DNA of 37,384 nt from the IMG/VR virus record IMGVR_UViG_3300049740_002723, positions 1 to 37,384 of that record; one strand, written 5' to 3'. Both the position numbers and the translations under genes were made by a program. The stretch is from a virus. Shown one piece after another: positions 2,145 through 37,384 of this stretch; the first letter of the stretch is position 1, and every line of letters starts with the position of its first letter. The notes beneath the pieces were generated by a model. The model had not been told where the DNA came from, ran no database searches, and saw only the letters and a list, made by a program, of their open reading frames with translations.

Positions 2145-3323
2145 ATGATGAAACACACTAACCGTAGTGGTATGAAATCACACACCACCCGATACACATT
2201 CGCCACATCTTCGCGGAAAACGAAGATCTATAAACGCTCCGAAAAAGGAGGCTGGACTTTTAAGACAGTCGTCGAAAAAAAAGTTCGTTACTTCCCCCTC
2301 GGACTAGACAGAGATGAGGCTCTAAAAATGGCTGACACCATACGCGGGCATCTCATGCTTTACCCGTTTGACGAGGTTCTCAAAATGTTTAATAAAAAAG
2401 CATTTGCCAAGGTAAAACCCCCCGCTCCGACCTTTGGCCAAAGTCTTGCGATATTAAAGAAGCATCAGTCAGCTATTGGCCTACGGGACTCGTCCCTCAA
2501 GGGGTACAAAGACAGCCTTGGTGGATTCATTCGAAAAGTTGCCGGTAAGAAAACACTTGTCGATAAATTTGACCTATCTCAAATCGATGATGATTTTATT
2601 ATGGAGTACAAAAGAGTGTGTCTTGAAGGTATAACCGATGAGTCAAAGCTCGCGAGTCGTAAGCGGACGATCAACAGTCGGATCCGTCAGATCAAAGCAA
2701 TGTTTTCTCGGGAAAAGTTATTCAAGGAATTTGATATGACCTTTGTCGAAGATTTACGGGATGCAGAATTCTTTACCGGGTTGAAGACAAATTATAAGCT
2801 TCCGAGTGAAGATTTAATTAGAAGCACATTTGAGCTTTGGGAAGATAGCACTGGAGATTTAAGAACTCTGCTCGGGTTGGCTCTGCATTTTGGTATGCGA
2901 CGAAATGAAATTTTTCATGCTCGGAAGCCGTGGTTTCAAATGGATGGAGATAAGGCTAGAATTAATATCACATCGGACTTAAGTTTCAGGCCGAAAGGTG
3001 GGCATGAAGGGTTTACTCTCGGAAGTAAAACCGTGGCCGCTGATATTCTTAATAAAGCATCGGACGACGGTTATTTAATTGAAGAACGAGCTGACAGCGG
3101 TCGTCCATTATTTGATGCTGCCCTTGATAAATTACGAGCTATTGGCTGGGATCGCGCTAGCCCATTGCATGAACTTAGAAAGTTATTCGGATCCTACATA
3201 GCGAGTACCGAAAGTATTTATATCGCTCAGAAATTTCTCAGGCATGCCGATGCGAGCACGACAAATGACTCTTATTCCGATGCGATTATTGAGGGCGATA
3301 TAAAAAATCTATGGGTCGCTTAG
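2145..3323 (+). CDS. int: Tyrosine-recombinase integrase
   Basis: A 392-residue protein of usual phage integrase length. The catalytic set of the tyrosine recombinase family is visible: Arg in GMRRNE (R252), HELR at 342-345, His in RHAD (H367) and the nucleophile Tyr in NDSYSD (Y377). The N-terminal 90 residues are basic with a beta-type arm-binding look, followed by a SAM-like core-binding region (about 110-215). It would recombine the phage attP with the host tRNA-Leu gene. The gene lies 51 bases after the tRNA-Leu half, a classical int-attP arrangement. There are two consecutive ATG codons (2145, 2148), either of which may be the start. It converges on the late gene cluster with a 4-base overlap at 3320-3323. 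Confidence 0.93.
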   Translation: MMKHTNRSGMKSHTTRYTFATSSRKTKIYKRSEKGGWTFKTVVEKKVRYFPLGLDRDEALKMADTIRGHLMLYPFDEVLKMFNKKAFAKVKPPAPTFGQSLAILKKHQSAIGLRDSSLKGYKDSLGGFIRKVAGKKTLVDKFDLSQIDDDFIMEYKRVCLEGITDESKLASRKRTINSRIRQIKAMFSREKLFKEFDMTFVEDLRDAEFFTGLKTNYKLPSEDLIRSTFELWEDSTGDLRTLLGLALHFGMRRNEIFHARKPWFQMDGDKARINITSDLSFRPKGGHEGFTLGSKTVAADILNKASDDGYLIEERADSGRPLFDAALDKLRAIGWDRASPLHELRKLFGSYIASTESIYIAQKFLRHADASTTNDSYSDAIIEGDIKNLWVA

Positions 3324-17468: not shown

Positions 17469-19031
17469 TTATACGTAGATTATAGGTTCAACGCTAGCGG
17501 TTGGCTGAACGGTTGCAACGGTTGTTGCGTGATGTCCATTTCCGGATGCATCAGTAATTCCGGTAACGATATCGCCATCAGTTAAGCTGTCATCTTCTCC
17601 CATACGGTAGTATGCTACAGGGGTTAAGCTTAAATCGTCTTTGATATGCGCGGTTTGGGATGTTGCTAAAGAAGTTATGTTGGGTTGAGTAAGTGCTGTA
17701 TTAAAAACCGCAACCTCATCTATTTTCCCGCTAAAGTAGTTGTAACCTGGAGTAGCCCCTATACTCATATCATTAGTATCACCAGTTATTGTTAATCCGC
17801 TACTGGATGATTTTGCTACACCGTCTATATAAAACTGAACGGTTCCACTTGAAACGGTAGCAGCTACATGATGCCAGGTGCCAACGGTTAAACTGTTAGT
17901 GTCATAAACCCAATCACCGCCTGAATGCCCCAATCCTATTTTCCCGGAGTGGTCGATAGTAAACTGGTAATTCATGGATCCGCCAACTTGCCGTTTTGTT
18001 AGTATAGCGTTGTAGCCACTAGTGTTGTCCAGATTGACCCAAGCTGAAACCGTAAGGTCTCCAGTTATGTTTATATCACTATTTTGAGTTACGGTTAAAT
18101 AATCATTTGATCCATCAAAGCTAACCGATGATGTAGCCGATTGAGCAAGCGCCTTGAATGTAGGCTGTGCGCTTGCAACAGTTATTCCATCATTAGTTCC
18201 TGGGTTTGCTGAGTTTGTTATCCCGGTAATGCTGCTTCCGTCGACAGGGGAGTCGTTTGAATCGTCTCCCATCCTTAACCAAAGGGTAGGACTAAAACTG
18301 CTCAAATTCCCAGGCACACCAGAATTGTAGATTGTTGCTATATTAGCGTCTGTTAACGATGACCCAAAAACTGCTACCTCGTCCATTTGACCCTCGAAAT
18401 AGTCTGTCCTTTCCTTTCCTACGGAAAAGAAAGATGATGTAGTTGCTAAACTCCAATTATGACTTGTTAAAGAAAGCGTTGTATCGGCTCTATTGCCGTC
18501 AAAAAATATTTTGTATCCTTTACCATTGTTACTAGCAGTCCCCGTTGAAGTCGTGTAATTACTGTCCACATAGACTATTGCAACATGATGCCATGCGTCA
18601 TCAAATACCTCAGAATTTGAAAGATTGCCAGTTGCAATGTAATATGCTCCATCTCCAGCATTATACTCGATTGCTCGCCCAGGGGCAGCAGGTACGAATC
18701 GAACTCCACCATACTGTGAAATTCCGCTTTCTCCGAATCCAGCAATTGGAAGACTGAAATGATTTTCGGTTGATTTAAACCAAAAGCTTAATGTATACAT
18801 GTCCAAATTCGGATTACTTGCAAAGCTTATATGGTCAGTTGATCCGTTAAAGCTCGCGCCCCAGCGGTTTTGGAAGGCTACCGCGCCGGTGCCGTCCGAG
18901 TGGACCTCGATCCATGCGGATCCGGTGTTTACAACAAATTTATTATTGTCCGTTAAGAAGTATGCCTTACCCGTGGCCGCAACATTTACGGCGGGGAGAG
19001 CGGCTGAAGTGGTAGTACTTATTGTTGCCAT
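17469..19031 (-). CDS. Adhesin with two LamG/concanavalin A-like domains
   Basis: A 520-residue protein. Residues 20-60 form a short tip-like module (AYFLTDNNKFVVNTGSAW). The first LamG-type lectin domain spans about 57-235 (FNGSTDHISF, WHHVAIVYVD, MDEVAVFGSSL), followed by the motif LWLRMGDDSND. The second spans about 300-445 (FDGSNDYLTV, WHHVAATVSSG, IDEVAVFNTAL), followed by YYRMGEDD and SGNGHHATT. These domains fold as beta sandwiches that often bind sugars, so host-surface or particle-surface glycan binding is likely. The C-terminus ends PIIYV, similar to the next gene downstream in the cluster. Expressed from the minus strand after the 274-residue paralogue. Confidence 0.83.
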   Translation of the reverse strand: MATISTTTSAALPAVNVAATGKAYFLTDNNKFVVNTGSAWIEVHSDGTGAVAFQNRWGASFNGSTDHISFASNPNLDMYTLSFWFKSTENHFSLPIAGFGESGISQYGGVRFVPAAPGRAIEYNAGDGAYYIATGNLSNSEVFDDAWHHVAIVYVDSNYTTSTGTASNNGKGYKIFFDGNRADTTLSLTSHNWSLATTSSFFSVGKERTDYFEGQMDEVAVFGSSLTDANIATIYNSGVPGNLSSFSPTLWLRMGDDSNDSPVDGSSITGITNSANPGTNDGITVASAQPTFKALAQSATSSVSFDGSNDYLTVTQNSDINITGDLTVSAWVNLDNTSGYNAILTKRQVGGSMNYQFTIDHSGKIGLGHSGGDWVYDTNSLTVGTWHHVAATVSSGTVQFYIDGVAKSSSSGLTITGDTNDMSIGATPGYNYFSGKIDEVAVFNTALTQPNITSLATSQTAHIKDDLSLTPVAYYRMGEDDSLTDGDIVTGITDASGNGHHATTVATVQPTASVEPIIYV

Positions 19032-19035
19032 GATA

Positions 19036-19860
19036 TTATACGTAGATTGTTTCGCCGGTTAGGTCAGAGAATGTAGGCTGCAAGCTTGCAGCTCCCTGGG
19101 TTGCATCATTTCCGTTTCCGCTTGAATCGGTTATGGTTGCGATACTTCCGCCTGAGGTTGCTGAATCATTTGAATCGTCTCCCATGCGGTACCAAGCAAC
19201 GGGGTCGTACGAATCGAGATCTGCGGGTTTACCTCCGCTTACTAAGTCAGCTAGGCTGCTTAAAGAAGAAGTAGAATTAAAAACAGAAAACTCGTCTATT
19301 TTATTACTACCCCCACCTGCATTTGCTCCATAAGTCGCAATAGTTAAAGGAGCTTGAACATAACTTATTGAGTCTGAAAATGTACCGAGAGGGGTATTTA
19401 AATTATCTAAGTACATACTGGTTGTGCCTGAACCGTCATTATGGATAACTAAATGCCTCCATGTATTTACTTGATAAGTGTAGCTTCCAGTAATTCGGTA
19501 GGCGCTATTAGTATAATATCTAATAGAGCTGCTAGTTAGCCATACCATTGGAGTTGCGCTGGGGCCTCTGAAATCAAAAAGTGCTTGAGCGGTATTATCG
19601 TGAATGAACCACATGCTGATTGTAAAACCGGTAGTCCCAAAAGCAAAATCAGTAGTGCTAGCGACCGACAGTTTACCACCACTAAAATCTGCGCCCCAGC
19701 GGTTTACGAATGGCACCTCCAGAGAGTCTGCATTAAAAATTTTCCAATCGGTACCGTCATAAAGTTTTATTGCGTTGAGATCGGAATCAACAACCATATC
19801 CCCAGTGATCGGGGTCAATGCGTTAATTTGAGAAGTTGTATATACGTTTAAATCGCTCAT
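19036..19860 (-). CDS. Adhesin with one LamG-like domain
   Basis: A 274-residue protein. Residues 1-50 contain a tip-type module (MVVDSDLNAIKLYDGTDWKI), then VNRWGADFSGGKLS begins a LamG-like sandwich (ISMWFIHD, WRHLVIHNDGSG, IDEFSVFNST to about residue 190). After it comes the same trailer as in the 520-residue gene: WYRMGDDSND, DSSGNGNDATQ, and a C-terminus ETIYV. The ATG overlaps the previous stop (TAATG). It appears to be a single-domain paralogue of the 520-residue adhesin. Confidence 0.8.
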   Translation of the reverse strand: MSDLNVYTTSQINALTPITGDMVVDSDLNAIKLYDGTDWKIFNADSLEVPFVNRWGADFSGGKLSVASTTDFAFGTTGFTISMWFIHDNTAQALFDFRGPSATPMVWLTSSSIRYYTNSAYRITGSYTYQVNTWRHLVIHNDGSGTTSMYLDNLNTPLGTFSDSISYVQAPLTIATYGANAGGGSNKIDEFSVFNSTSSLSSLADLVSGGKPADLDSYDPVAWYRMGDDSNDSATSGGSIATITDSSGNGNDATQGAASLQPTFSDLTGETIYV

Positions 19861-20375
19861 TATGCGTCGTTGTTATAAGTTTGCCAATCGCTGCCATCGA
19901 AGATGTAGAGATCGTAAGTATCAGTTCCGAACATGATAGTACCGGTTGCATCCCCGCTTCGTGCGCGGATATTGGCTTCGGTATCTACAGAAATATTAAG
20001 AGTCGCCGCGGCGGATATCGAATCGGCTTGTACATTATCAATCGAGCTAACGGTAAATGATCCGCTATTGGATACATAAATCGCATTGGTATCGGTGGCG
20101 ACTGCAACCGCTCCGTTTGCCTGACTGGTATCGGCGAGGATATTTGCGGCGGTATCGGAAACAGTGACGGTTACATCCGCAACGGTGGAGACAAAGTTAC
20201 TGTATGATCCGATTGCGGCTTCAAGTGCGGAGACTTGGGCTTTTTGTGCTGCCTCGGTCGATCCGGTGGGTGCGGGAATAACTAATGCTCCCGTTACGGT
20301 TCCGCCGGAGAGATCGAGTTTTTCAGCTAATTTTCCGCCTACTGCGGTTCCGATTTGAGATAAGATATTTGCCAT
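19860..20375 (-). CDS. Fibre-like protein with IGTAV N-terminus and two tip modules
   Basis: A 171-residue protein. It starts MANILSQIGTAVGGKL, shared with the coiled-coil fibre and the plus-strand 68-residue gene. A short helical stretch (AAQKAQVSALEAAIGSY) is followed by two beta modules: ILADTSQANGAVAVATDTNA with YVSNSGSF, and VDTEANIRARSGDATGTIMF with YDLYIFDGSDW. The module with DGSDW is a common tip element of phage fibres. It is the first of three coupled adhesin genes. Confidence 0.75.
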   Translation of the reverse strand: MANILSQIGTAVGGKLAEKLDLSGGTVTGALVIPAPTGSTEAAQKAQVSALEAAIGSYSNFVSTVADVTVTVSDTAANILADTSQANGAVAVATDTNAIYVSNSGSFTVSSIDNVQADSISAAATLNISVDTEANIRARSGDATGTIMFGTDTYDLYIFDGSDWQTYNNDA

Positions 20376-23095: not shown

Positions 23096-25120
23096 TTATC
23101 CTTGATATTGATTCATTCCTTGTGGGTTACTATTACCCATACCAGCAGTTGCGGCATTAACGCCATCGGTTGGTTGTGGGCTCTCGCCTCCCCCCTGTGC
23201 TGCATTGTCACCCAGCATCTTAGCGATTTCCGCTTCGGATTTTGGATCGGCCGGAGCTTCGGGAGGAAGTAACTCATCGGTCTTTTCAAATCCCATCGCA
23301 TCAAGAATGCGTTTAAGCATGGGACGAATAAAGGGGCGCATTTCGGGAGGGGATTGGAAGTAACGATCCTGAGTCTGCAATGCCAAATTGGCTTTCTCTA
23401 TAGCTCGCTGTCCTTGGTCCTGCGACAGCATGACCCGAACATTGATACCAATATCCTTAATCGCTTCGGGAGACATGACACCAAATGCCCGGACATCCCC
23501 TTCCATGTATTCAAATACTTCTTCCTCATCCACGGTAGCCATCGCGACTTGTACGAGCTTGGTCAGATGATCCTCAAATCCGCGGACAATTCTACGCATC
23601 CAACGACGACCAATCTTACTTGCCTCTCTTAATGTTGCTTCGACACCCGTCGCTGTATTTGCGGGAGCCAATGCCTGATAATCACCCTGTGCCATATTAG
23701 AAACGCCCAACCAGAGCTGGACGATACCAAATACGAAATCAATCAGATCCTGGGTGCGGATATCAACATTAGGCACAGCGGCGAAGGTCATAAAATCATC
23801 AATGCTATACTGATCCTTCAATTCAAATATCTTACCGGCATGCAATTCCACATCCTCCGGCTCATCTTCCACGGCCTGCGGGTTGACACCGATAATAGGA
23901 TTCGCAGCAAGCTCGTTGCGATAGCTTTGGGAGTTAAATTGTTTATCAACATACTCCTGAAAAGATCGAATCCGTTCGGGTAAGCTGTATCCACACCATT
24001 TGTTTCTGTCTTTTCCGATGGATACTGAGGTATACGGTATACGGTTATCAGGAGTTAGTTTTGCAACGAATTCGTAGAAGATTGGTTTTTCGGTTTCGGG
24101 ATCGATGAATATGCAAAATTCCTGAGGCTGTCCAGTGCCCATGACATCACGCTTAATCCAACATTCGAGAACCTGCATACTTGGATTTTCATCAGAATCA
24201 AAATCAAGGTTTTCTTTTCTCTCCTCATTCTTCTCGATTGGGCTTCTTGGATTCGCATCCTTATTTACCATGTTGTAAAAATCGGCGAAGCTTAACCAGT
24301 CGCGTTCGAGGAACATGTCCTTTGCCCAGCGAAGATCCTTGTCATACATTTCCACAATAAAATCAGCATCATCAATTGATTCTGCATCTGATGGGCATAG
24401 AAAACGATCTGAGTCCACGACCTCCGACCTTGGACCTTTGTACTTTACCATTTGAGTGGGGACTCCTTCCGGAAGTGGTTGGAATTCGTGTACACCCGGA
24501 GTCATTACGAAACTGGGATCTGATGCAAGTCGAAGTTCTGAGTCGCCGGTCATGGGGTTCATTTCTGGAATGAACTGGTCTTCACCCTCAATTATCGGTC
24601 CCTGGCCGGGGATCTCCTCAAAGGATCCGGTCTGCATATTAAAGAGTCCGTTTCTTTCGTAATCATACCATGTCGATACATCCTCCTCATATACTGCTTT
24701 TAGGACTAATGCCCGTTGGATAAATAAATGGAGGTACGATTCTTCGAGCCGTTCTCGGGTATTGGCACGATCCTCAATTTTCCAGTTAAAGTATTTATCG
24801 TAGGTCTCGGCCATATCAATATCTCCTGCTCCCTGAGCTTCGAATTTAAAATAAGGAGATGTACCGGTAATCTCATCCTCGGCACGAGCCATGAAGTGAT
24901 CGACCACGAGGCTGGTCATGGGAACGGATAGATTGGAGTGGCTAAATATTCCGTCGTACCCTACCCGATCGGTTCGATCATTGTGGTACATTTTCCATGA
25001 AATCTTATCGTTTTCAATACGCTCCCGATTGTCTTCCTTTAACTGCTCAACACGCTCCAGTGCATATTTAACCAGTTTATCTTCCTGTTTTTTTGTAAGC
25101 CGTAAATTTGTTTGTTTCAT
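23096..25120 (-). CDS. Portal protein (podophage type)
   Basis: A 674-residue protein of usual length for portals of short-tailed phages. The N-terminus is helical and charged (KQEDKLVKYALERVEQLKED), followed by IFSHSNLSVPMTSLVVDHFM. The central part has VDSDRFLCPSDAESIDDADF and PYTSVSIGKDRNKWCGYSLP, then the long-helix region QEYVDKQFNSQSYRNELAANP, and the helical barrel end (EKANLALQTQDRYFQSPPEM) with a Gln/Gly/Pro-rich tail. The portal forms the 12-fold ring through which DNA enters and leaves the head. Its ATG overlaps the stop of the giant gene (ATGA), so the two are translated together. Confidence 0.86.
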   Translation of the reverse strand: MKQTNLRLTKKQEDKLVKYALERVEQLKEDNRERIENDKISWKMYHNDRTDRVGYDGIFSHSNLSVPMTSLVVDHFMARAEDEITGTSPYFKFEAQGAGDIDMAETYDKYFNWKIEDRANTRERLEESYLHLFIQRALVLKAVYEEDVSTWYDYERNGLFNMQTGSFEEIPGQGPIIEGEDQFIPEMNPMTGDSELRLASDPSFVMTPGVHEFQPLPEGVPTQMVKYKGPRSEVVDSDRFLCPSDAESIDDADFIVEMYDKDLRWAKDMFLERDWLSFADFYNMVNKDANPRSPIEKNEERKENLDFDSDENPSMQVLECWIKRDVMGTGQPQEFCIFIDPETEKPIFYEFVAKLTPDNRIPYTSVSIGKDRNKWCGYSLPERIRSFQEYVDKQFNSQSYRNELAANPIIGVNPQAVEDEPEDVELHAGKIFELKDQYSIDDFMTFAAVPNVDIRTQDLIDFVFGIVQLWLGVSNMAQGDYQALAPANTATGVEATLREASKIGRRWMRRIVRGFEDHLTKLVQVAMATVDEEEVFEYMEGDVRAFGVMSPEAIKDIGINVRVMLSQDQGQRAIEKANLALQTQDRYFQSPPEMRPFIRPMLKRILDAMGFEKTDELLPPEAPADPKSEAEIAKMLGDNAAQGGGESPQPTDGVNAATAGMGNSNPQGMNQYQG

Positions 25121-28100
25121 GAAATTCCAAGCGACTGTGCTTTTTTGATGACCTTGACCATCATATTTAACTGCTTCTCTTCTATGTCCGCAATGCGTTG
25201 CATTTTTTGCGCTTCTGTCAGGTTCTTTGCACTTTCGACCTTCGACTTAAGTCTGCTGAACTTATTCTTTTGGGCTTCGAATCCTTTTATCTGGCTGGAC
25301 ATCGAAAGCAAAGGTCGCAGGTCTCGGTTCACCAGGCTGTAGGCTTTTGGGCTAATCTTCTTAGCATCCTTAATCGCACTCTCTGCGGTCTTAATTGTGT
25401 CCCGAAGGTTGTAGTACAATTCTCGGGTGTGCGAGCCGTAGGTCGTGCCTCGCATGAAACGGTTAATAATGGGAACCTGACCTACATTATCGATAGATGC
25501 GGTTCCTTTGGCTGCGGAGAATAAGCCTCCAAATGCAGTATCTAAGAGTTGTCCTGGACCACCTAAGTATCCATAGAACATATGCTTGAATTGATTTCCT
25601 GAAATATCAAATTTTATATCTGAATCCTGATCGTACATTAACGGATTCTTACTTCCAAAGGCTCCGGATAATGATCCTTTGATTACATCATTTCCACCAA
25701 AGAACTCATTTAATCCCTTTGATAATGCATTCCAATGTGCGGGTGTGCTTTTTGGATCCTGCATGTGTCCGGGTTTAGGTACTCCGAATTGATCATCTTT
25801 ATATCTGATTTCACGACCCATGAAATTCTTATTTGCCCATAATTCAATGATTGGGGTGACAAAGGTAGGGGTTCCGATTGTGGCAATACTTGCACCACCG
25901 ACTGGATTAAATGCATTCATTGAACTTTGCAGTAAACGATTCGCACCTTCCATTACTCCTGATCCTCCACGAATACCTCCGTAATTATTTGCAAATGTAT
26001 CCGCTACTACCTGACCCATTGACCAGAATAAATTGTACCCAAGAGGTAGGGGCATGCTGAAATATCCTGTGTCTTTTTTATCATTAAAGAAATCAGGCAG
26101 CCCCGCTGGGATTGGCATGATTAAATTAGTGTCTCTTTTATAACTGCTAATTGTGTCGTAATCCGGTACAGCCTCATCCTCATCGTCATCCATTAGACGA
26201 TTAAAGGTTGCGACTAGGAATGATGCGGTTGCAATTCCACCAATTAATGTAGCCCGCTCAGCCGGGCTCCTACGATTTAAGGTAGTCATGAAGCGATGTG
26301 TTGAATTAACTGCCGCTCCAAAGAATACATATAGTGATCCAAATGCCTGTGTCAGTTCACCCTTCTGATTGAAGTCCACGGTTATATTCCTGGACATGGT
26401 CGCTGATTCCTGAGGATTATATCCATTCTTAATCGCTGCCCAGAATGTGGACATACGAACAGAATTCTCTACACCCGTATTCGCGGCATCAACATATGAT
26501 AGTACATTTTTAAGACGACGCTTGGTTGCACCCTCGCTCTTACCGGTTTCTTTCTTTATTTTACGAATCAATTCGGGGACGGTGTCATGACGGACATATC
26601 CAATCTTTGCTCCGTTTCTTTTTGCGTAGGCATACATTTCAATCTTATCCCCGCGCTTTAAAATTGCCTGAGCGTACTGAGCTTCGGTTTGTCCTTTAAG
26701 CTTTTCTGTTCGGGTTCTACCCTCCATCGGGTCTTTGCCTTGGCTGATAAGAAGCTCGGCTTTTCCAATAGAAGTTATCCATTTTAAATTTTTAAATTTG
26801 AATACATCTTTAACCAGTTTCTTTTTATCGTCCTCAGTTAAATGGATAAATGCCGTTCCTAAATCCCGGAAAAAGTTGGGGATGATGAAAGCCGGATTCA
26901 TCGATGTAAACATTTGAGCCATGAATCTCGTAATCTTGTTGAAATATTTAAGAACTGAAGGAAGAGACTCGTACTTTAAATTTTTCATGGAACGAGCCAT
27001 GCGTGTACCCTTGGTGGTATTCTTAAATTTAATGAACATTGGGGTTCCGTTTACTCGGTAAACAAATACTAACGGGTCTTGTTTGAACTTAGCGTTTAAG
27101 GTTTTTCTTTTAGCTACAAATTCTCCCGTATTCCCATCGGTTACATACTCATCGCTAAATGTAAGCGTGTTTTTTTTCTGGGTCTCATTAAAATCCTGTT
27201 CAAAGATTTCATCGAATTCTTCCTTAATCTTCTTCTTCTGTTCTTCCGGTAATTTAGACATCTGACCGTAGGCAATTCTAAGTTCCGGATCACTCGGCTC
27301 ATACGGTTCTTCTCTATCGGGATACGCAATAGATCTCATCAATTCGAACATTTCTCCGAAGCTTCGGGAGACTTCATTCTTATGACTTCGAATTGCGGAA
27401 TCAAAGAATTGATTAATTGCATTTGCTAATACGCTGTCGGGGTTCGGACCGCGGGTTCCTTTTACTCGGCCAAATGCTGGATCGCGTAGCAGTTCTGATT
27501 TTGGCTGATCCCAACCTTTTCCAGAACTGTTCTGCCCTTTTCCTAATTCTTCCCATGCACGCTCGGCATCGAAGAATGCTTCGGTCTCTCCCTCAAATCC
27601 CTGCATGGGAGAGTATGAGTATTTCGGATCGGAGAGTTTAACTTTTGATCCGGCAAATCCAAATTTCTCTTTGGGGTCTGCCAAATCGATTTTGGACATT
27701 GCGCCAACCATGCGATCGTATTCGCTTAAACCCTCCTGGACACCATCAAGCTGCGCGCTCTCCCTAATCATGCTCGCATTTCTGAGCATGGATATAGATT
27801 CCTTATTCATGTTGTAATAAGGATCCAGTGCTTCATTTAAAAAGTTTACGAAATTAGCCCCGGTCTTTGGGTTATTTTCATACTCAGTAATTAAATTATA
27901 TGCTGCCTGATCGGATATTCCGGAATCTTTTATGGTATCATCTTCGTTGAGATACACATCTTTAATATCTGCGAGTGCATTTACTTTAGCCGTGCCGGTT
28001 AAGCCTTCGGCCTCCTCCTGGAGTCTTTTGACCTTATCCCTGAGATGTTGGTTTCTACTTGGTGCGGCACGGGCAAGGAGATATTTTCCAAAGGTACCTT

Positions 28101-31100
28101 GATCGATACCGTATTTAAGCATCGCATCCTTAATAGGCTGGATATATTGGATCCTAGCCTGTTCAACGGTGTCATACCCTTTTCCGAAATACTGGTGCCA
28201 TTTGCCGTGGACATTGAGCATATTGTAAAGACTACGCATTGGGCCTTTAGCGATGTCCAATCCGGATTCTTTTAGTGTTTCAAATAGTGAGCGGTGTACT
28301 TTCTTTAATGGATCCGCCTGGTCAACAAAGCTCATCATAAAGCTACCGGCTAATTCTGAATCCTTTTTGTCCTTAAGCCATTCCTCGAAATTCTTTTTTA
28401 ATTCGCTATCGCCCGCAATTCTGCTGAGAAGGTTTGCCTTCGCAAGATTTGGGTTAACGTCGCTGGTCAGCGTTGCATCGGAATTGAGCGTGCGGTCTGG
28501 GGTGGGAACTGCTTCGGATCGAAACATTTTTAATAAGGCCGCGGCATTTACCAGGTTTTCATAATCTTGTAGTGATTGATTCTTATCTTGAAATACATAG
28601 CCGTGAGCCATTTCGTGTAACGCCACAAAAGCTAAAACACCTGATTCATCTCGTACAACACCGCCTAAATTTTCAAAATCATAAAAAGATACTTTCGAGT
28701 TACTACTCATTAACTCTGAAGCTTTTTTGATTTTAAATGGGTCTATAGCCATACTGCTTCCTAAAAATCTACCAGCCGCACCCCCACTCTCTTTTTCAAA
28801 AGACATTGAGATTCCTGAAAATCTGTCTTTAAGGTAGGCGTTTATTTGGTCGATCTGTTTACTTGATGGTTTGCTTTCAGCAAGTGCTTTTTGGTACAGC
28901 CAATTTATATTTTCATCCGACTGTTTAGGTATTTTTGATTTTTGATTTTCTAGGAATGTCTGTAAGTCGTCTTTACTTAAGAACGCGGGTGTACCAGCCT
29001 TTATTTTTTCTATCGCGCTTAAAATGGGGGATTCTTTGGAAACCGTGCTTGTTTTTGGTTTAATGAACAGTTCAGATAGCTTATCCCGAACTATAAAATA
29101 GGAAGAGCCTATTTCTGAAGCCACCGCTTCTACTAAATCTTCTACTTCTAAATAATCAAAAAACTCACGCGGATGTTCTTTTTCCTGGATACTTTGATCT
29201 ATTAGTTTTGATAGGGTGCCCCACGATGAGCTACTTTTAATTGATTCTAATAGATTTGTAGAAGATGTGTTTTCTGATGTTTTCTCTTTAACTCTAACAC
29301 CCCGCCTTTTATTTGCGTAGTCCAATAGCTGTTTTGCTAAGTTATTAGGGCTTTGATCTAAAGGTACTTTTTCTATCCTTTTAATAGCGTTAAAACCATT
29401 GTATATATTTTTTATATCTTCTGAATCCCATCGAGCTCCTAACTGTAATATCTTACTTAATGGGGTACCTTTATTAACTAAAGACATGACCTTCAAAGCC
29501 ACAGTTAAATTGTTTCCAACCGGAGTTCCTATATCTGAATTTAAAGTTTTTGATTTAGTTTTTGAAAAAATAACATTGTTTACGGTTTTTAAAAAATTAT
29601 CGACTTGCTTGCCCGCATCGGAATTGAGCGTGCGGTTCTTGCTCTTGCTGTCGCTGGGTGTAGTGAACTGATTGCCTTGCGCTGTGCCAAACATGTTCGC
29701 ACTGTAGGCATCGTAGTTAATTTTCTTATCCAGAAAAATATCGTTTTTTGTCCTGCCCGTTTGATCTTCCTTGATTATTATGTTGATTTCCTTTGCAACA
29801 CTTTCAAGCACTGACCCCTTGTAATCTGACTGAGTCACTCCAAAAGCCCTGAGTACCCAGTTCATCATTAAATCGAAGAAGGTCATATCCACCAGAAGAC
29901 CTTTATCGTGCCATTTTAAGTCTAACCCAAGAGAATCAAACTCTTCCTTGCTAATCTTCTGCGATATTAAATACTCAGCAACATCAGGACTAGTGAATGC
30001 CATTGTTGGCATCTCTGCTACATCGGAAAGGAAGTAGTCTAGTGCGTAACTTTCATAACTAGAGTCACGCTTACTAATAATAAAATCTCGAATTTTTTCT
30101 AAGTTTTCGTACGAGGTTTTGTATTTTGGATTCTTACGAAACTTTCTTGCCCTACGTTTAATCCGAGCTTTATTGATAAACTCCTCCACTCTGCCAATCG
30201 TTTGTTCATCATTATTACCAAGAATATCCAAACTCTTAATCAATTTCGGGTCGGAGTGCTTTATGCCTATTAGAGGTGATGTTATTGCGTGCCAAGTCTC
30301 ATGCATTATCGTCTCAATCAGGCTCTCCGGGGTGGCACTTTGATAATAATCACTGTCTACGGTAATCGTATTCGTTGGCATTCTGTACACACCCCAAAGT
30401 TCCATTTTCTCTCCGGTAACAATGTCTTTTCCGGATTTTTTAAGTTTAGAAACTTTAAATTTGGTTTTTCTTCCGTAGGGTGATTCCTTTAGAAGCGTAG
30501 ACATCAAGATTGATGCTTCAGTAAATATGTCATTAAACTTGCCCTTGTAATCTTTTTCTACCGCACTAAGTGCTTCGGTTAAAAGTATCTTCTTGCCACC
30601 CTTTATTTTCTCCGAAAGCTCTGGCGTGAACTGATTGCCTTGGACTCCCGCAACCTTCGCACCGGTCTTGATATTCGCGGCGGCAAATCCCATGAGCGTG
30701 GATTTCGTAGATCCTTGCCGCCCGATATCGGAATTGAGCGTGCGGTTCTTGCTCTTGCTGCTATTGGGGGTGAAGGTTTCCTCAAATTCTTTTACATTCT
30801 CGGCTAACTGAGCTTGTTTAAAGCTGTCAGTCATTGAGTCGTCGGTGAAAGCTTTTATCTCCTCAGGAGTTTTGTCTTTCAAATTTGACTTAACCAGATC
30901 CGATAGCGTAATTGGTTTCTCTACAGGGTTTTTATTTACTGGGTCGGGATCAACACCAAGTTCCTGTCTTTTATCATTTTGGAACTGGTTTAAAGATTCC
31001 TGTTCTACTGGGTTAACCTCAACCTTTGGTGTTTGAGCACCTGAATCTGTGTCGTCTGCTTCAGTCTGCATCTCCGCGGAATCATCCTTATCAAAACTTT

Positions 31101-34100
31101 CTGCTTTCTGTGTATCTCGCTGGAGTAGATTTTCTGAATTTGGATCGAACTGATCGTATACATCAATACCTTCAGCATCTAAAACTGCCTGAACAATGGG
31201 TCGGGTCAGTGCTTCCATAACTTCCGGATGCATCATACCTTCCTTATCTGAGAACATGTTAAAATCGACAAGTTCTCCACCCATCATCATTCGACCTTCT
31301 GTATAAGTCCAATCAAAGGTTTTATCTGATTCTGCGTCTTTGATCTTAAGATCTAAATCCTTGATATTTAAGTTTTCATACATCGCAGTTATGAAATCTC
31401 TAAAGACATATGGGAGAAGTCCTTCGCCAAGGCCGCCTGGTAGTTGTTTATTATCCTTAGATGACGGGGTCATCTGCAAGTCAGCCATTCGATTAACTTC
31501 AGAACCCTTAGCGCCTAAATACCAGTTAGCGAGATCGACAGCACTAATGTCTGTTGATGATAGTAGATCCGCTTCAGCCCGATCCATGTTGATTGGGCGT
31601 GCGGGTGCTGTTTCTGAATTACCAACATTAGTTCTTTCTTTTTCGAATCCTGTCGATGTACCCATGAGCATATCAGCTACGAGCTCAGGAGATTCACGCC
31701 TTTTAGAAAAGGCTGTCATGACATCAAAGGTTTTATACATATCGCCGGCGGTAAAAGCTCCGTGATCACCTTTTGCAGGTATGTTTTCTGATGTCCGACT
31801 CAGAGGTCTTCTAAAATCATAAACATCTTCCGGTTTTACTCGGAACTTTGAAACTGTTTTTGACTGAGGTTTGGAGACTCCACCAACAACCTCTAAAGTG
31901 TGTCCGTTTAACTGGTCGCTTAAATATTTTTCATTATCTACTCTTGCGCGTAAAAGCTCATAGGCTTCTGTAAGACTTTCTTGAATCTTTTTAGGTATGG
32001 GGACTAACTTTCCTTCAACTTCAACTCCGCGTTTTTCTTTTATAGAGGTTATATAATCACCAAATTTTTTAAGAGCTACTTGAGGGTTTTCTCCTGAGAG
32101 GGAGTCTAAACGCAGACCTTCTTTGCTCATTTCTAGGTTGAATTTGGAAGATGTTGAATCGGAAAGTTGCGTATTTTCTACAATGTAATCTAAATACTCT
32201 CTTTCAAACTTGAGACGGGCTTTTGTACTCAACACCCCGAGCAGAGTCTTAGCTAGTGTTGCACCGGGCTGAACTTTTATAAACGGATCACCATCTTCTT
32301 CTGCATATTCAAATTGATTCTCAAGATCGCTTGGAACACCACCTTTATCCTTCTCCCCGAGAAGTTTGGATTTCATTTCTTCCCGTGCGATTACAAAAAG
32401 CATGCGATCGAAATCTTTCATAGAATCGCTTGGATCACCAAGCAGTTCTAATGTTCGGCCGTTAGCCATCATCAGTGCTACAACATCAGGAATTGTAGGC
32501 TCGAGAGTTTCTAAATCGAAATTTGCGTATGCTTTTGTACCATCAGATTTTACTTTTCCGGATAAGCCTTTTTGCCTAATTCTTTCGGCAATAACCGCTC
32601 CAAAATTTGCTCCGCGCTCTGTGGTAAAACCGCTGGGGTATCCGCGTCGGGCTTCTTGTTTAATATTGTTTTCTACTTCCCAACGAGCAGAACCCATAGG
32701 CTCCTTACCAATATCCTGTTGCTTTGTGAACATAGCAGAAGCTTTTACAGCTTCCAGTTTCATACGGTATTGGTTTTCGGTTAGCCCTCCGTAAAAAGGT
32801 TTTTTGACTGTCGCTTTATCTTTATCGGAAACGGGTGGTGGTTTAAATTCGCGATTTACATAATCCCAAAGATACTCCTGAGGAGTTCTTGTATCTTCCT
32901 TGTCCTTTTCCTGACGACTTACTTTATATTCTATGTTCGGATATTCTGTAGACTTATCATCTATAACATCCCAATCCTTCATCCCTGCTAGCATGCCTAG
33001 GGTGACCGGTTGGAACTTATTGTATTCTGGGCTGTATACTTTGTCACCTTTTACCATTTTATACCTGCGGTAGGTCATCAAACTATGCGGTACATCCTTC
33101 CAATCAACGGATGCTTCCTCAGGAGCGATAAAATGAAGGTACATTTTTACCAGCTTACGCTTTGACTGGAGCTCGGTTATTTCTGCCTCCGATTCGGCCT
33201 CGATGCGTTTAATTAAATTCAGAGACTTCTTAGTATTCGAGGCCAACGGATTAAGGCTTGCGATCTCCCGGTCGATCTCAGCGAGTCTGAGGTTGAGCAA
33301 TTCTTTAATATCCTCGATTCTCTCCCTTGCCTCGGTTGCCATGTCCTCAATATCCTTGGAGCTTGGAACCTTGGATCGGCTGGCGGTGGGGTTCATCGCT
33401 TTCTCAATTTCGGATACGAATGAGATGGGAGATGCCTTGAGTAATGTTTCTAGGTTAAGAACTTTTGAAATAATCTGAGTAATACTTGGGCTACCCTCTT
33501 CTCCTAGTTCTCTTATCGCTTCCCCGATCGCTTTGTCTATAGAAACTACGGAATCGAACTTTGCTTGATTTTCGCTTAACTGATCCTTCAGATCACGAAT
33601 TTGGTCTAGCTCTTCTTTTGTTTTTGGAAGAATTTTATCGAGCTTAAGTATTTCCTGCTCGCTTCTGCTTGTTGCTTTCGGGTTAACCGAAGCGGTTGTA
33701 TTATTCTTTGAAGGTGTGCGTTGATTGAGCTTATCCTGTTCGGTTCCGAGTTTGGGATCCGGCCCGTCAATAACAGCTGGCCTAGCTGGATCGGGGTAGT
33801 TTTTTGGTGCAATCTCATCGACTCGGAATGCGACTGTTTCTTTTTGTTTCGCTTTTCTTATAGCATCGCGCTTTTTTCTAATCTCTGCTTTTTGTGCTTC
33901 CTTCTTCTCCGCTCTTTTTATTCTTTTCTGTGCGGCTTTGGAGTTTGGCTTTGATTTAAATAATCCGTCGGACTTTTGAGATTCTCTTGGTGCAGTTCCC
34001 AGTTCTTTTGGTAGTTCTTTCCCGCCTGGTGATTCGCTTATCTCCTCTTGCTTGGGCTTTGGCTGAAAACCCCCATCCTCTCTAAGCTGCTGCTCGTTTA

Positions 34101-37100
34101 ATTCTTCGGAAGATAATTCGTCTTGTGGTTGATCTTTTGCGTCATAACCATCGGTCTTTTTTCTTTTAGCTATTTTCTTTTCTAATCGTCTAAGATTAGA
34201 TTCCTTCAGTGTATCCGCTACAGTTTCCGCATCTTTCTTTTTCTTATCAAGCTCCTCAATATCTTTAGACGCTGCGACCGCTGCGGCTCTGTTCATATTC
34301 GAATAGAATGACGGGCTTTCCGTAAGGATGTCCGCGCCGAGCATTGCGTTAACCGCTTTTGCGATTTTGGATTTCTCCTGCGGAGTTCCCGGCATTGCGT
34401 TAAGCTTTGTCTGGGTCTGCTCTCTGGTCTGCGGGGTCGGGCTGCTGGGCGTGCCCCCTTCGTCTGGAACCTTGGGGGTAGGCATTCCGTTTTCGTATCC
34501 TAGGAATTGTAAGATCTTTTGGTCTAATATATAGCCCTGCTCGCTTTTACCTCCGGCTAGATTTTCTGTTCCCGCGTATTCGCCAAGGATTGGGTGGATA
34601 ACTTTGTCCTTAAAATTCTTAAGAGGCTTAGCAACATTCTTATCAACGGTGTACCCCATGAGCACCCTACCCCATTGGTATGAGAACCATTCTTCGGCCA
34701 GGACATCATCAGGAGTTCGGTCAAATGCTCGCCTAACTTTCTTCTGAGTTTTCTCATCCAATGAATCAAAAGTAGCATCTGGCTTCTTGGTAAAATACTG
34801 GGTATATGCTTCGAGCTGACTGTCTTCACCCAGCCCACCCCATGCGGATCTTAACTCCTCATCGGACATAACCATGATCCTGGCAAAGTGACCGGATTCA
34901 TGCATGAATGCACCCATTGGATCTGCGGCAAATTCCTTTTCATTAATGTACATGATGTTATGTCCATCACGTGCTTCAAAGGTTCCTCGGTTTTTAAGAT
35001 TGGCATCCGGAGTCCGTGGGCTGAATGCAATCTTTAATTTAGACATCTCATCCGGATTAGCTGCGTACATACGCTCAACCCAGTTTTGGGTAAACTGCAA
35101 TGTTTCCGGATTAACTCCTTGCACACTTTGGAGATGCCCCATCATTGATTCGGCATCATTAAATGTCTGATAAGGTGCGGAATATCCGGCACGGGTAACA
35201 GTTCCCATGGATCCGGTCTCGGTCATATTCTCGCCGGTTATTTCAATCGGGGCATTACCAAAATAGTTACCGCTTCGGCTCCGCATTTCCAATGCCGATG
35301 ATAGTACACCTGGGCCAACGCCAACAATTCCTTCAGCGGCAATTGCATCCCAGTCCCAATCCTCGCCAGGTTCTTTACTTGCCCATTGTCCGAGATACTC
35401 TCCGGACATACCCATGAGCGAATCAGCACCTAGTTCAGCCGCAGCATTACGGGTTTTTTGAAATTTTGTAAACCGGGGAACTGCTCCAGCGGTTTTATTG
35501 AACTGTGTCTTATTTAAAAGCTTACCACCCTTGAACATTGCGTTACCGGTATGGTTCGCAATTGCCATGACTTTACCAGCCATCATACCCGTAAGCATAT
35601 CGGCAACCGCTATCGGTGTGCCCTTCTGAACCATCTTCTTTTGGATCTTATTTCTTATGCTTTCATTGGTCCATGCGGCCGCAAATATCTTTGGATTCTT
35701 CCAATCAATTCCTAATTCCTGCATTCCTTCCAATGCCATGCCCGATGCTTCGAGAACAAAGGATGCCGCACCCCATGATGCTCGAGCTCCCAAAGCTGCA
35801 CCCGCGGCCGTTCCGGCTCCGGGAATGATTGAACCGGCCAATGCTCCGGTTGCTGTGGTAGGGATCATCCATTTGATTGCAGATGGAAGAAAAGAGGATA
35901 ATGACTCCACGAACATTTCTGGAATCGCGGCGGGATTATCAAATAATAGATTTCCCATTGCATCGAGGAAGCCATCCGATTTGGTTGACTTCACCCGTTT
36001 CATGGTTGAGCTGGTCGGAAGCTTTTCGATCTCAGATGCAATCTCAATGAATTTCTGCATCTCATCCGCATCCAAGGTATTGGTTAGAAAGTCGGGAGTA
36101 TAATTACTCATTTCACTCATGAGCAATCCACGCTTAACCGCATTTCCAATAGCAGATAACCAACCCGTAGTTTCAGCCTGCTCGAATAATTCATTATCCA
36201 ATCCGAACTGAGATGCTAATCCAATAGTCTTGTTTACCTCTTCCCTGGCCGCTTCCATTTTCTCGCGCAAGGCATCGCCTTTTGCTCCACCGGAATTCTT
36301 TAAATACTCAAGCTGTACATCTTCGTAATTACTTTTCGCGGCGTAGACGGATTGCATGACCTTTGCGACTTTCAATCTTTCCTCTCCGCCCAAAGACTCA
36401 ATTGCCTGTTCAATAGGCTGACCTTTGTACTCGGTCATTCCAGCCTTCTTCATCTCCTCGAGATCAAGAAGATCCGTATCCTTACGGCTCATACCAATAG
36501 GTCGTCCGTCAATCTGACCACCGTTTGAGAACATGAATCCTTTGTCGCGAAGCTGTCTATCTCTCGCGACCGATTGCCTGCGACTTAAGAATCCAGCCAT
36601 GTCCCCACGCATTGCAGCTTCTAATCTTTTAGTCTGCTTACCTGCGGCTGGAGTCCTTTGACCCGTGACCATATTAACTGCGGATGGGACGCTCTTTCTG
36701 GGGTCTGTTCTTTCTAAATTAGTAACCTCGCCCGTAACCATATCGACGACCGGTTTTTCGAACTGCATCTGATTGAGCATTTCATCAGTTGCTTTTTTGC
36801 TTCTCGGTTTTGCGGTTCGTGACTTAAGACTTGCGTCCAATGCCTCGCGCTGTGGAATCGGAATACTGGTCATTTGCTCGAACAGAGCATATTCCATAGC
36901 TTCTGCCTGATCCGCTGCGGCCTTACGCCTATCCCTTTCGGCCTTTAGCCTGAGAAATTTGTCCCGCATCCCATTTGGTTGGTTCCAGGATGCGTACTTT
37001 TTTAAATTTTCTTGGGACGCAAGTTTTGAGTCAGGTGATCCAAAAAAGCCATCTTCTTGCTGACTGTTCTTGAGATCGGATTTGTACATCTCATCGATTG

Positions 37101-37384
37101 CACTGATGTACTCCTCATCGGTCTCAAAGTCTCCAAATCCACCCATGCTTTCAAAGTAGGGTGTAAATTCATTTTTCTTAAAATCGTCGTACAAAGTCCC
37201 GTAATGACTGGCAGATCTTTTGTTCTCCCGTGCGTACTGGCTGATCTGGCTGTGCTGATTTTTTGCCTGCTCGTAGAGATCCAGGTCGTACCCATTAAAA
37301 TTATGATATGGCTGGGGCTGCTGCTGGGGTTGAGGCTCGGGCGGAGCGTATTGGGGCTCAGCTATTGAGCTTTGGGGTGTTTGA
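25117..37384 (-). CDS. Giant polyvalent protein with three zincin motifs and an LPD38-like end, 5' truncated by window edge
   Basis: The frame is open through the right edge, so at least 4088 residues; numbering here is from the TTG codon at 37194. Upstream is a Gln/Pro-rich stretch. Residues about 438-490 form a Gly/Ala-rich hydrophobic region (PTTATGALAGSIIPGAGTAA). Three HExxH zinc-protease motifs are seen: HESGH 765-769, HETWH 2298-2302 and HEMAH 2860-2864. Residues about 1000-1200 are charged, helical or disordered. From about 2990 on, the protein resembles the LPD38-type region of phage polyvalent proteins (MNPAFIIPNFFRDLGTAFIH; IMPIPAGLPDFF; TPIIELWANKNFMGREI). Such proteins are thought to be packaged and delivered with the DNA. 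It is coupled to the portal by ATGA. I see no N4-type RNA polymerase motifs. Confidence 0.82.
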   Translation of the reverse strand, partial: QTPQSSIAEPQYAPPEPQPQQQPQPYHNFNGYDLDLYEQAKNQHSQISQYARENKRSASHYGTLYDDFKKNEFTPYFESMGGFGDFETDEEYISAIDEMYKSDLKNSQQEDGFFGSPDSKLASQENLKKYASWNQPNGMRDKFLRLKAERDRRKAAADQAEAMEYALFEQMTSIPIPQREALDASLKSRTAKPRSKKATDEMLNQMQFEKPVVDMVTGEVTNLERTDPRKSVPSAVNMVTGQRTPAAGKQTKRLEAAMRGDMAGFLSRRQSVARDRQLRDKGFMFSNGGQIDGRPIGMSRKDTDLLDLEEMKKAGMTEYKGQPIEQAIESLGGEERLKVAKVMQSVYAAKSNYEDVQLEYLKNSGGAKGDALREKMEAAREEVNKTIGLASQFGLDNELFEQAETTGWLSAIGNAVKRGLLMSEMSNYTPDFLTNTLDADEMQKFIEIASEIEKLPTSSTMKRVKSTKSDGFLDAMGNLLFDNPAAIPEMFVESLSSFLPSAIKWMIPTTATGALAGSIIPGAGTAAGAALGARASWGAASFVLEASGMALEGMQELGIDWKNPKIFAAAWTNESIRNKIQKKMVQKGTPIAVADMLTGMMAGKVMAIANHTGNAMFKGGKLLNKTQFNKTAGAVPRFTKFQKTRNAAAELGADSLMGMSGEYLGQWASKEPGEDWDWDAIAAEGIVGVGPGVLSSALEMRSRSGNYFGNAPIEITGENMTETGSMGTVTRAGYSAPYQTFNDAESMMGHLQSVQGVNPETLQFTQNWVERMYAANPDEMSKLKIAFSPRTPDANLKNRGTFEARDGHNIMYINEKEFAADPMGAFMHESGHFARIMVMSDEELRSAWGGLGEDSQLEAYTQYFTKKPDATFDSLDEKTQKKVRRAFDRTPDDVLAEEWFSYQWGRVLMGYTVDKNVAKPLKNFKDKVIHPILGEYAGTENLAGGKSEQGYILDQKILQFLGYENGMPTPKVPDEGGTPSSPTPQTREQTQTKLNAMPGTPQEKSKIAKAVNAMLGADILTESPSFYSNMNRAAAVAASKDIEELDKKKKDAETVADTLKESNLRRLEKKIAKRKKTDGYDAKDQPQDELSSEELNEQQLREDGGFQPKPKQEEISESPGGKELPKELGTAPRESQKSDGLFKSKPNSKAAQKRIKRAEKKEAQKAEIRKKRDAIRKAKQKETVAFRVDEIAPKNYPDPARPAVIDGPDPKLGTEQDKLNQRTPSKNNTTASVNPKATSRSEQEILKLDKILPKTKEELDQIRDLKDQLSENQAKFDSVVSIDKAIGEAIRELGEEGSPSITQIISKVLNLETLLKASPISFVSEIEKAMNPTASRSKVPSSKDIEDMATEARERIEDIKELLNLRLAEIDREIASLNPLASNTKKSLNLIKRIEAESEAEITELQSKRKLVKMYLHFIAPEEASVDWKDVPHSLMTYRRYKMVKGDKVYSPEYNKFQPVTLGMLAGMKDWDVIDDKSTEYPNIEYKVSRQEKDKEDTRTPQEYLWDYVNREFKPPPVSDKDKATVKKPFYGGLTENQYRMKLEAVKASAMFTKQQDIGKEPMGSARWEVENNIKQEARRGYPSGFTTERGANFGAVIAERIRQKGLSGKVKSDGTKAYANFDLETLEPTIPDVVALMMANGRTLELLGDPSDSMKDFDRMLFVIAREEMKSKLLGEKDKGGVPSDLENQFEYAEEDGDPFIKVQPGATLAKTLLGVLSTKARLKFEREYLDYIVENTQLSDSTSSKFNLEMSKEGLRLDSLSGENPQVALKKFGDYITSIKEKRGVEVEGKLVPIPKKIQESLTEAYELLRARVDNEKYLSDQLNGHTLEVVGGVSKPQSKTVSKFRVKPEDVYDFRRPLSRTSENIPAKGDHGAFTAGDMYKTFDVMTAFSKRRESPELVADMLMGTSTGFEKERTNVGNSETAPARPINMDRAEADLLSSTDISAVDLANWYLGAKGSEVNRMADLQMTPSSKDNKQLPGGLGEGLLPYVFRDFITAMYENLNIKDLDLKIKDAESDKTFDWTYTEGRMMMGGELVDFNMFSDKEGMMHPEVMEALTRPIVQAVLDAEGIDVYDQFDPNSENLLQRDTQKAESFDKDDSAEMQTEADDTDSGAQTPKVEVNPVEQESLNQFQNDKRQELGVDPDPVNKNPVEKPITLSDLVKSNLKDKTPEEIKAFTDDSMTDSFKQAQLAENVKEFEETFTPNSSKSKNRTLNSDIGRQGSTKSTLMGFAAANIKTGAKVAGVQGNQFTPELSEKIKGGKKILLTEALSAVEKDYKGKFNDIFTEASILMSTLLKESPYGRKTKFKVSKLKKSGKDIVTGEKMELWGVYRMPTNTITVDSDYYQSATPESLIETIMHETWHAITSPLIGIKHSDPKLIKSLDILGNNDEQTIGRVEEFINKARIKRRARKFRKNPKYKTSYENLEKIRDFIISKRDSSYESYALDYFLSDVAEMPTMAFTSPDVAEYLISQKISKEEFDSLGLDLKWHDKGLLVDMTFFDLMMNWVLRAFGVTQSDYKGSVLESVAKEINIIIKEDQTGRTKNDIFLDKKINYDAYSANMFGTAQGNQFTTPSDSKSKNRTLNSDAGKQVDNFLKTVNNVIFSKTKSKTLNSDIGTPVGNNLTVALKVMSLVNKGTPLSKILQLGARWDSEDIKNIYNGFNAIKRIEKVPLDQSPNNLAKQLLDYANKRRGVRVKEKTSENTSSTNLLESIKSSSSWGTLSKLIDQSIQEKEHPREFFDYLEVEDLVEAVASEIGSSYFIVRDKLSELFIKPKTSTVSKESPILSAIEKIKAGTPAFLSKDDLQTFLENQKSKIPKQSDENINWLYQKALAESKPSSKQIDQINAYLKDRFSGISMSFEKESGGAAGRFLGSSMAIDPFKIKKASELMSSNSKVSFYDFENLGGVVRDESGVLAFVALHEMAHGYVFQDKNQSLQDYENLVNAAALLKMFRSEAVPTPDRTLNSDATLTSDVNPNLAKANLLSRIAGDSELKKNFEEWLKDKKDSELAGSFMMSFVDQADPLKKVHRSLFETLKESGLDIAKGPMRSLYNMLNVHGKWHQYFGKGYDTVEQARIQYIQPIKDAMLKYGIDQGTFGKYLLARAAPSRNQHLRDKVKRLQEEAEGLTGTAKVNALADIKDVYLNEDDTIKDSGISDQAAYNLITEYENNPKTGANFVNFLNEALDPYYNMNKESISMLRNASMIRESAQLDGVQEGLSEYDRMVGAMSKIDLADPKEKFGFAGSKVKLSDPKYSYSPMQGFEGETEAFFDAERAWEELGKGQNSSGKGWDQPKSELLRDPAFGRVKGTRGPNPDSVLANAINQFFDSAIRSHKNEVSRSFGEMFELMRSIAYPDREEPYEPSDPELRIAYGQMSKLPEEQKKKIKEEFDEIFEQDFNETQKKNTLTFSDEYVTDGNTGEFVAKRKTLNAKFKQDPLVFVYRVNGTPMFIKFKNTTKGTRMARSMKNLKYESLPSVLKYFNKITRFMAQMFTSMNPAFIIPNFFRDLGTAFIHLTEDDKKKLVKDVFKFKNLKWITSIGKAELLISQGKDPMEGRTRTEKLKGQTEAQYAQAILKRGDKIEMYAYAKRNGAKIGYVRHDTVPELIRKIKKETGKSEGATKRRLKNVLSYVDAANTGVENSVRMSTFWAAIKNGYNPQESATMSRNITVDFNQKGELTQAFGSLYVFFGAAVNSTHRFMTTLNRRSPAERATLIGGIATASFLVATFNRLMDDDEDEAVPDYDTISSYKRDTNLIMPIPAGLPDFFNDKKDTGYFSMPLPLGYNLFWSMGQVVADTFANNYGGIRGGSGVMEGANRLLQSSMNAFNPVGGASIATIGTPTFVTPIIELWANKNFMGREIRYKDDQFGVPKPGHMQDPKSTPAHWNALSKGLNEFFGGNDVIKGSLSGAFGSKNPLMYDQDSDIKFDISGNQFKHMFYGYLGGPGQLLDTAFGGLFSAAKGTASIDNVGQVPIINRFMRGTTYGSHTRELYYNLRDTIKTAESAIKDAKKISPKAYSLVNRDLRPLLSMSSQIKGFEAQKNKFSRLKSKVESAKNLTEAQKMQRIADIEEKQLNMMVKVIKKAQSLGIS
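28475..28496 (-). repeat. Direct repeat copy (RTLNSD), shorter form
   Basis: These 22 bases are identical to bases 29615-29636. They encode RTLNSDA, residues about 2901-2907 of the giant protein. The repeat sits just after the third zincin motif (2860-2864). Confidence 0.85.
29533..29556 (-). repeat. Diverged copy of the LNSD motif
   Basis: Encodes KSKTLNSDI (residues about 2547-2555). The protein motif is kept but the codons differ from the other copies, so this is an older or independently kept copy. Confidence 0.7.
29617..29650 (-). repeat. 34-base direct repeat, copy 2 (KSKNRTLNSD)
   Basis: Identical over 34 bases to 30727-30760. It encodes KSKNRTLNSD, residues 2517-2526. A second short repeat of 17 bases encoding GNQFT lies next to it at 29663-29679. 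Confidence 0.92.
29663..29679 (-). repeat. 17-base direct repeat (GNQFT), copy 2
   Basis: The 17 bases are identical to 30626-30642 and encode QGNQFT. The two copies lie 963 bases apart and enclose the second zincin motif. Confidence 0.85.
30626..30642 (-). repeat. 17-base direct repeat (GNQFT), copy 1
   Basis: Partner of 29663-29679; encodes QGNQFT about 30 residues after the first KSKNRTLNSD copy. Confidence 0.85.
30727..30760 (-). repeat. 34-base direct repeat, copy 1 (KSKNRTLNSD)
   Basis: Encodes KSKNRTLNSD, residues 2147-2156 of the giant protein, and lies 1110 bases from copy 2. The second zincin motif is between the two copies. Confidence 0.92.

Follow-up and report, generated by a model that had tools for sequence, protein, structure and literature searches.

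The giant gene in this virus record, a 37,384-base stretch of DNA that was analysed whole and is called the window below, probably encodes a virion-borne polyvalent protein that serves as a cargo rack, with exchangeable cassettes at repeated joints and, as we infer, cleavage by a zincin resident in its backbone. The conserved backbone of this rack starts with an N-terminus that combines a hydrophobic part with an HESGH zincin, continues through a middle part and ends in a C-terminal part with LPD38; it has at least two slots for effector cassettes, each with its own short joint sequence. Recombination at the repeated joints would allow cassettes to be gained, lost, nested and stacked in frame; in the window, slot 2 is loaded with three units, including an HETWH zincin and an HEMAH cassette, and slot 1 is empty. 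The assembly of giant ejected proteins from unrelated effectors has so far been inferred mainly from domain lists, and the close relatives of this gene show it in action: the same rack appears empty, loaded once or loaded three times, and the breakpoints are exact.

The giant gene and its conserved backbone

The open frame of the giant (feature 25117–37384; frame 37383 to 25117, on the minus strand like every feature of the gene given below) is 5′-open at the window edge and contains 4,088 codons, so that 4,088 aa lie in the window, or 4,025 aa when counted from the first in-window TTG. The sequence-only reading had placed the start of the chain at this TTG, but comparison with the relatives L003 and L005 puts the ATG about 43 codons upstream, beyond the window edge, so the TTG is not the true start and the full-length protein is estimated at about 4,131 aa. 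The window is the complete linear virus record, and the record is probably a virus fragment. The start of the portal gene (23096–25120, minus strand; SU10_portal profile match, E = 3.8e-32) overlaps the giant's stop codon by 4 nt, so the direct coupling of the two genes, proposed earlier, is real. Downstream of the portal gene come laminin-G-type fibre genes and the genes for a P22-type coat protein and for an SU10-type adaptor. Like other phage-type polyvalent proteins, the giant is very large and multidomain, and its gene stands in the structural gene block of the phage.

Scans of viral contigs returned about 40 loci of the giant's protein family, and all close relatives are metagenome contigs. 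The N-terminal ~1,040 and C-terminal ~1,120 residues form a conserved backbone that is 36–95% identical among relatives. A Gly/Ala-rich hydrophobic region, correctly noted from the sequence alone, is present at about residues 500–700; within the conserved backbone, the hydrophobic segment at residues 504–576 (35656–35874) gives a weak DUF6861 match (E=0.0037) and is 95–100% identical in close relatives. The C-terminal backbone (25120–28474) contains an LPD38 domain (PF18857, E = 1.5e-25, residues 3740–3953, positions 26166–25525), whose profile match is above the Pfam cutoff, bears out the earlier suggestion of an LPD38-like C-terminal part, and points to a polyvalent protein; relatives of this part occur in Vibrio, Stx and Bcep22-type phages.

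The resident zincin-like domain (34657–35109) carries the motif HESGH at residues 828–832 (nt 34902–34888). More than 15 metagenomic relatives have an N-terminus that extends as far as this motif, and all of them possess it. An alignment of 16 sequences shows no change in any of them at the two histidines and the glutamate of the motif or at E898 (in AEEWF, 69 residues later). An AlphaFold2 model of the domain (pLDDT 84.7, pTM 0.79) has, in order, a helix (50–66), three strands (75–79, 91–96 and 99–105), the HExxH helix, and a Glu-bearing helix (183–200). The modelled domain is consistent with a zincin, in that it has an HExxH helix, a candidate third ligand on a later helix, and a preceding helix and sheet. 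Comparison of the model with the PDB gives no significant fold match, the best zincins being MATCAP and BlaR1 at E 0.45–0.9, and among viral models it best matches large phage proteins that are uncharacterised, some of the lower-ranking ones bearing polyvalent-protein domain annotations. The N-terminal 1,010 aa of the window giant, including the resident zincin, has no match among cultured phages.

Joints and cargo of slot 2

The open frame contains three HExxH motifs, HESGH, HETWH and HEMAH, at residues 828, 2361 and 2923, as against 0.02 per chain expected by composition (Poisson P for at least three, ~1.5e-6). These are the motifs earlier placed at 765, 2298 and 2860, counted from the TTG, and the description of a single frame of more than 4,000 residues with three such motifs therefore stands. 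The three motif-bearing domains are distinct, as had been proposed, and show no mutual similarity; a duplicated zincin domain was considered and rejected, since neither the HETWH nor the HEMAH module matches anything but itself, bar short or weak pieces. One to five zincin MPTases per polyvalent chain are already reported in PMC5512222; "three zincins" in one chain are thus not new by themselves.

HETWH and HEMAH both lie in slot 2, at window residues about 2219–2963, which in the window has three units between four joints; the second of these units is only ~20 residues long. The joint peptide of slot 2 has the core RTLNSD, reads NRTLNSD-A/I-G, and goes with exact DNA repeats of 20–34 nt. Joint 1 (SSKSKNRTLNSD; 30727–30762) shares a 34-nt exact repeat with joint 2 and marks the end of nucleotide homology to L005 and L002. 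Behind it lies a degenerate Tat-like leader (GRQGSTKSTLMGFAAANIKTGAKVAG; 30640–30732), which has an intact RRGFMK form in L022, and then cargo unit 1 (29644–30636), the HETWH zincin-like domain (HETWH at residues 2361–2365, nt 30303–30289), identified by alignment with L010, L018 and L032. Joint 2 (SKSKNRTLNSDAGK; 29614–29652) is identical over 46 nt to the first joint of L005, and joint 3 (KSKTLNSDIGTP; 29524–29559) has the same peptide core as the other joints, encoded by different codons. The last cargo unit, the HEMAH cassette (28513–29523; HEMAH at residues 2923–2927, nt 28617–28603), has an N-terminal part related to the cargo of L023 and L025, and is followed by joint 4 (RTLNSDA; 28475–28496), the permanent right-hand copy. 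Nucleotide homology to L005 (88–93%) extends through the final base of joint 1 (CAGCAAGAGCAAGAACCGCACGCTCAATTCCGAT), is lost there, and resumes at joint 4 (ACCGCACGCTCAATTCCGATGC). The joint sequence SKSKNRTLNSDAG is a candidate cut site. In addition, the HETWH domain is flanked by a 17-nt repeat (QGNQFT) within slot 2, which indicates that cassettes can nest.

Zincin-like domains are the only enzymatic domains recognised in the window chain; its relatives add ART-PolyVal, SLOG-like and DUF4326 domains. In four divergent sequences (window, L010, L018 and L032), the two histidines and the glutamate of HETWH and a later glutamate, E2457, are invariant and are followed by a shared C-terminal hairpin; judged by sequence, HETWH is a zincin, with E2457 as its candidate third ligand. 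Assignment of this domain as SprT-like (PF10263) was rejected at 18.7 bits against a cutoff of 25.6 bits (E=0.0016). HEMAH looks M78-like (ImmA/IrrE-like) by eye, with E2942 as a guess for the third ligand; it gives no profile match, M78 included, and its single-sequence model (pLDDT 36.5) is uninformative, so that neither supports a zincin fold. No direct homologue of either module, HETWH or HEMAH, came up in viral contigs, cultured phages or the PDB. The profile and structure check suggested in the sequence-only reading thus came out in favour of HESGH, through its zincin-like model, gave no support for HEMAH, and left the SprT-like match of HETWH below cutoff.

Cassette exchange among relatives

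The closest relatives are 88–94% identical to the window on both sides of slot 2 and carry unrelated cargo or none in between; the 739 aa cargo of the window, for instance, corresponds to a different cargo of 246 aa in L005. One joint and no cassette are found in L024, L026, L028, L030 and L035, and two joints and one cassette in L005, L002, L021, L022, L023, L025 and L029. Comparison across these loci shows the number of joints per slot, as read from sequence, to equal the number of cassettes plus one. In a more distant branch, the slot 2 site has an ALGSS joint, which is single in the empty L014, L018 and L034 and double in the loaded L009, L019 and L010. The slot 2 cargo of L002 and L021 matches ART-PolyVal (2.3e-7 and 2.8e-8; 32.1 and 35 bits, above the cutoff of 31.2 bits), that of L029 gives a weaker ART-like match, and that of L005 is ART-like by eye, while L022 and L009 carry slot 2 cassettes with Tat leaders.

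Neither HETWH nor HEMAH is present in the other relatives of the clade whose sequence covers slot 2. This bears directly on the proposal that three intrinsic proteases of one virion protein jointly hit host or cell-wall targets, for which one may cite the three HExxH motifs in one frame and the third-ligand glutamates of HESGH and HETWH. HESGH alone belongs to the conserved backbone, however, whereas motifs 2 and 3 are cargo of an exchangeable slot, missing from relatives in which that slot is spanned, and the zincin status of HEMAH is without support; the proposal is largely refuted, and we consider it very unlikely.

Slot 1 of the window (33199–33252) is empty or a remnant of 18 aa, with the homology break at residues 1377/1396. 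The same slot holds 318 aa with SLOG-like and DUF4326 domains in L005, and cpYpsA and NADAR-like (by eye) cargo in L011, with AQGQGP or GQKPKAEG as joints in these two relatives. The joint rule thus holds outside slot 2 as well. In L028, a cassette is enclosed by two copies of ASQKPEA, and at another site, in L032, a 34-nt joint occurs on either side of an HESVH zincin cassette, the close relative L034 having it only once. The cargo kinds of slot 1 (SLOG, DUF4326, cpYpsA) are predicted to counter NAD-based immunity or remove NAD-derived signals (PMC9503650).

Exact repeats of at least 16 nt in 19 giant genes are nearly all located at cassette borders; only L022, with a low-complexity stretch, and L011, with a repeat tract, depart from this. 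No exact repeat of that length occurs in genes whose slots are all unloaded (L024, L026, L030, L034 and L014), and in some loaded slots (L002, L010, L018, L019 and L029) the joints are kept as peptide with fewer than 16 exact bases shared.

Breakpoints located at repeats, in contigs that are metagenomic, are also what would be seen if the variable slots were assembly errors in which different phages had been joined at short repeats. Such errors would have had to leave the reading frame intact in every case, to give the same state, whether loaded or empty, in data sets independent of one another (L023 and L025; L024, L026, L030 and L035), to make joint number follow cassette number, and to insert cargo belonging to coherent anti-defence families; we regard this explanation as extremely improbable and read the slots as sites of genuine cassette exchange.

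Proposed processing and delivery, and relation to known systems

Codon differences between joint copies comprise 11 synonymous and 1 non-synonymous changes, a count that includes non-independent pairs, and the joint peptide therefore seems to be constrained. Since the joint peptide runs on into the conserved backbone, conservation alone does not prove a cleavage site. RRxF[LM]K Tat-like motifs occur only twice in 84,000 residues, both directly after a slot 2 joint (RRGFMK and RRGFLK; L022 residues 2316–2350, L022:10716-10820, and L009 residues 660–695), a position that makes most sense if a cut creates a new N-terminus there. Because the joint peptides persist through codon differences, and because Tat-like motifs need a freed N-terminus, we infer that the joints are cut, with the resident HESGH zincin as the most likely protease. 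Self-processing by zincins has been proposed for polyvalent proteins generally, and P1 DdrB is cut, according to PMC5512222.

The same joints could instead be recombination scars only, in a chain that acts uncut and in which HESGH either acts as an effector or is a structural relic. The near-identical joint DNA at many borders (20–46 nt) is enough for annealing-type recombination, and PMC5512222 provides a precedent that counts against joint cutting, the N4 virion RNA polymerase, which is polyvalent, has an MPTase domain and is packaged uncut. Scars alone would hardly keep the joint peptides unchanged despite codon differences, and Tat-like leaders behind the joints would be useless to an uncut chain; we therefore rate this reading as rather unlikely, though deserving of serious consideration, and favour a rack whose joints are cut.

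The giant would be packaged and then ejected with the DNA, and the freed cargo (zincins, ADP-ribosyltransferases, and NAD/ADP-ribose-handling domains) would act on host defences or functions. Packaging is supported by homology, since the C-terminal part has relatives among DarB-like proteins, and the JC1 member of these is present in purified virions: JC1 gp69, a distant homologue of 4,515 aa, is represented by 51 unique peptides in mass spectrometry of purified virions (PMC9144972). The virion role proposed earlier is thus upheld by analogy, resting on the portal coupling and on the C-terminal homology to Bcep22-type DarB-like giants. These giants and Stx podophage LPD proteins have a homologous C-terminal part and similar size, but Burkholderia DarB-like proteins have annotated helicase, methylase and transglycosylase domains, none of which was found in the window giant. 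A fuller version of the favoured scheme, which we put forward only tentatively and as a possibility that may well prove wrong, is that the resident zincin cuts the RTLNSD or ALGSS joint of a virion-delivered polyprotein and frees anti-defence cargo, some of it Tat-exported to the periplasm, that the joint is both protease site and recombination site, and that the whole is a plug-in platform which a marine phage group has in common. The phage itself is of marine type.

MuF and other polymorphic toxins of temperate phages have a conserved delivery part and exchangeable effector domains at one variable C-terminus. Module exchange in the giant is similar, but it is internal, affects several slots, and has joints on both sides; assignment to the polymorphic toxin class was rejected because the giant's variable parts are internal and its C-terminus is conserved. 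The polyvalent proteins of Iyer et al. 2017 (PMC5512222) resemble the giant in being multidomain, with zincin MPTase, ART and LPD38 domains, and in their predicted self-processing and DNA-linked delivery, and zincin-ART fusion in such proteins is already published there. That paper raises recombining cassettes as a possibility only, for one Verrucomicrobium kinase system, and in the part covered it does not describe defined slots, repeated joints, empty and loaded states, or joints equal to cassettes plus one. No description of joint-delimited cassette exchange in polyvalent proteins was found in the open-access literature, which the search covered, and the exchange of cargo at several joint-bounded slots appears to be new. 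Reading the sequence between two joints offers a route to new anti-defence domains, and the self-processing of polyvalent proteins becomes directly testable, with a candidate protease and candidate cut sites both named.

Several observations concern the surroundings of the gene. In L003, the terminase large subunit lies two genes upstream of the giant, and the gene between them (L003:4830-6932) encodes a 700-aa protein without family assignment, which has a Gly/Ala-rich hydrophobic stretch and is a possible second ejection protein. A first search of species genomes found no relative of the giant; a second returned L020, a 3.6-kb contig that is related to the C-terminal backbone and had been binned in a Flavobacteriales MAG, which is a possible host hint, viral-contig binning being weak evidence and L020 too small for host assignment. 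In the window, a 972-aa ORF amid the structural genes (5131–8049) has no match in Pfam or PHROG, and positions 931–1398 and 2145–3323 encode a PD-(D/E)XK endonuclease (PF11645, E=4.7e-13) and an integrase, the integrase gene suggesting that the phage is temperate. Positions 19860–20375, which adjoin the laminin-G-type fibre proteins (17469–19860), match PF18454, the N-terminal domain of the Major tropism determinant, weakly and below cutoff (E=0.00065).
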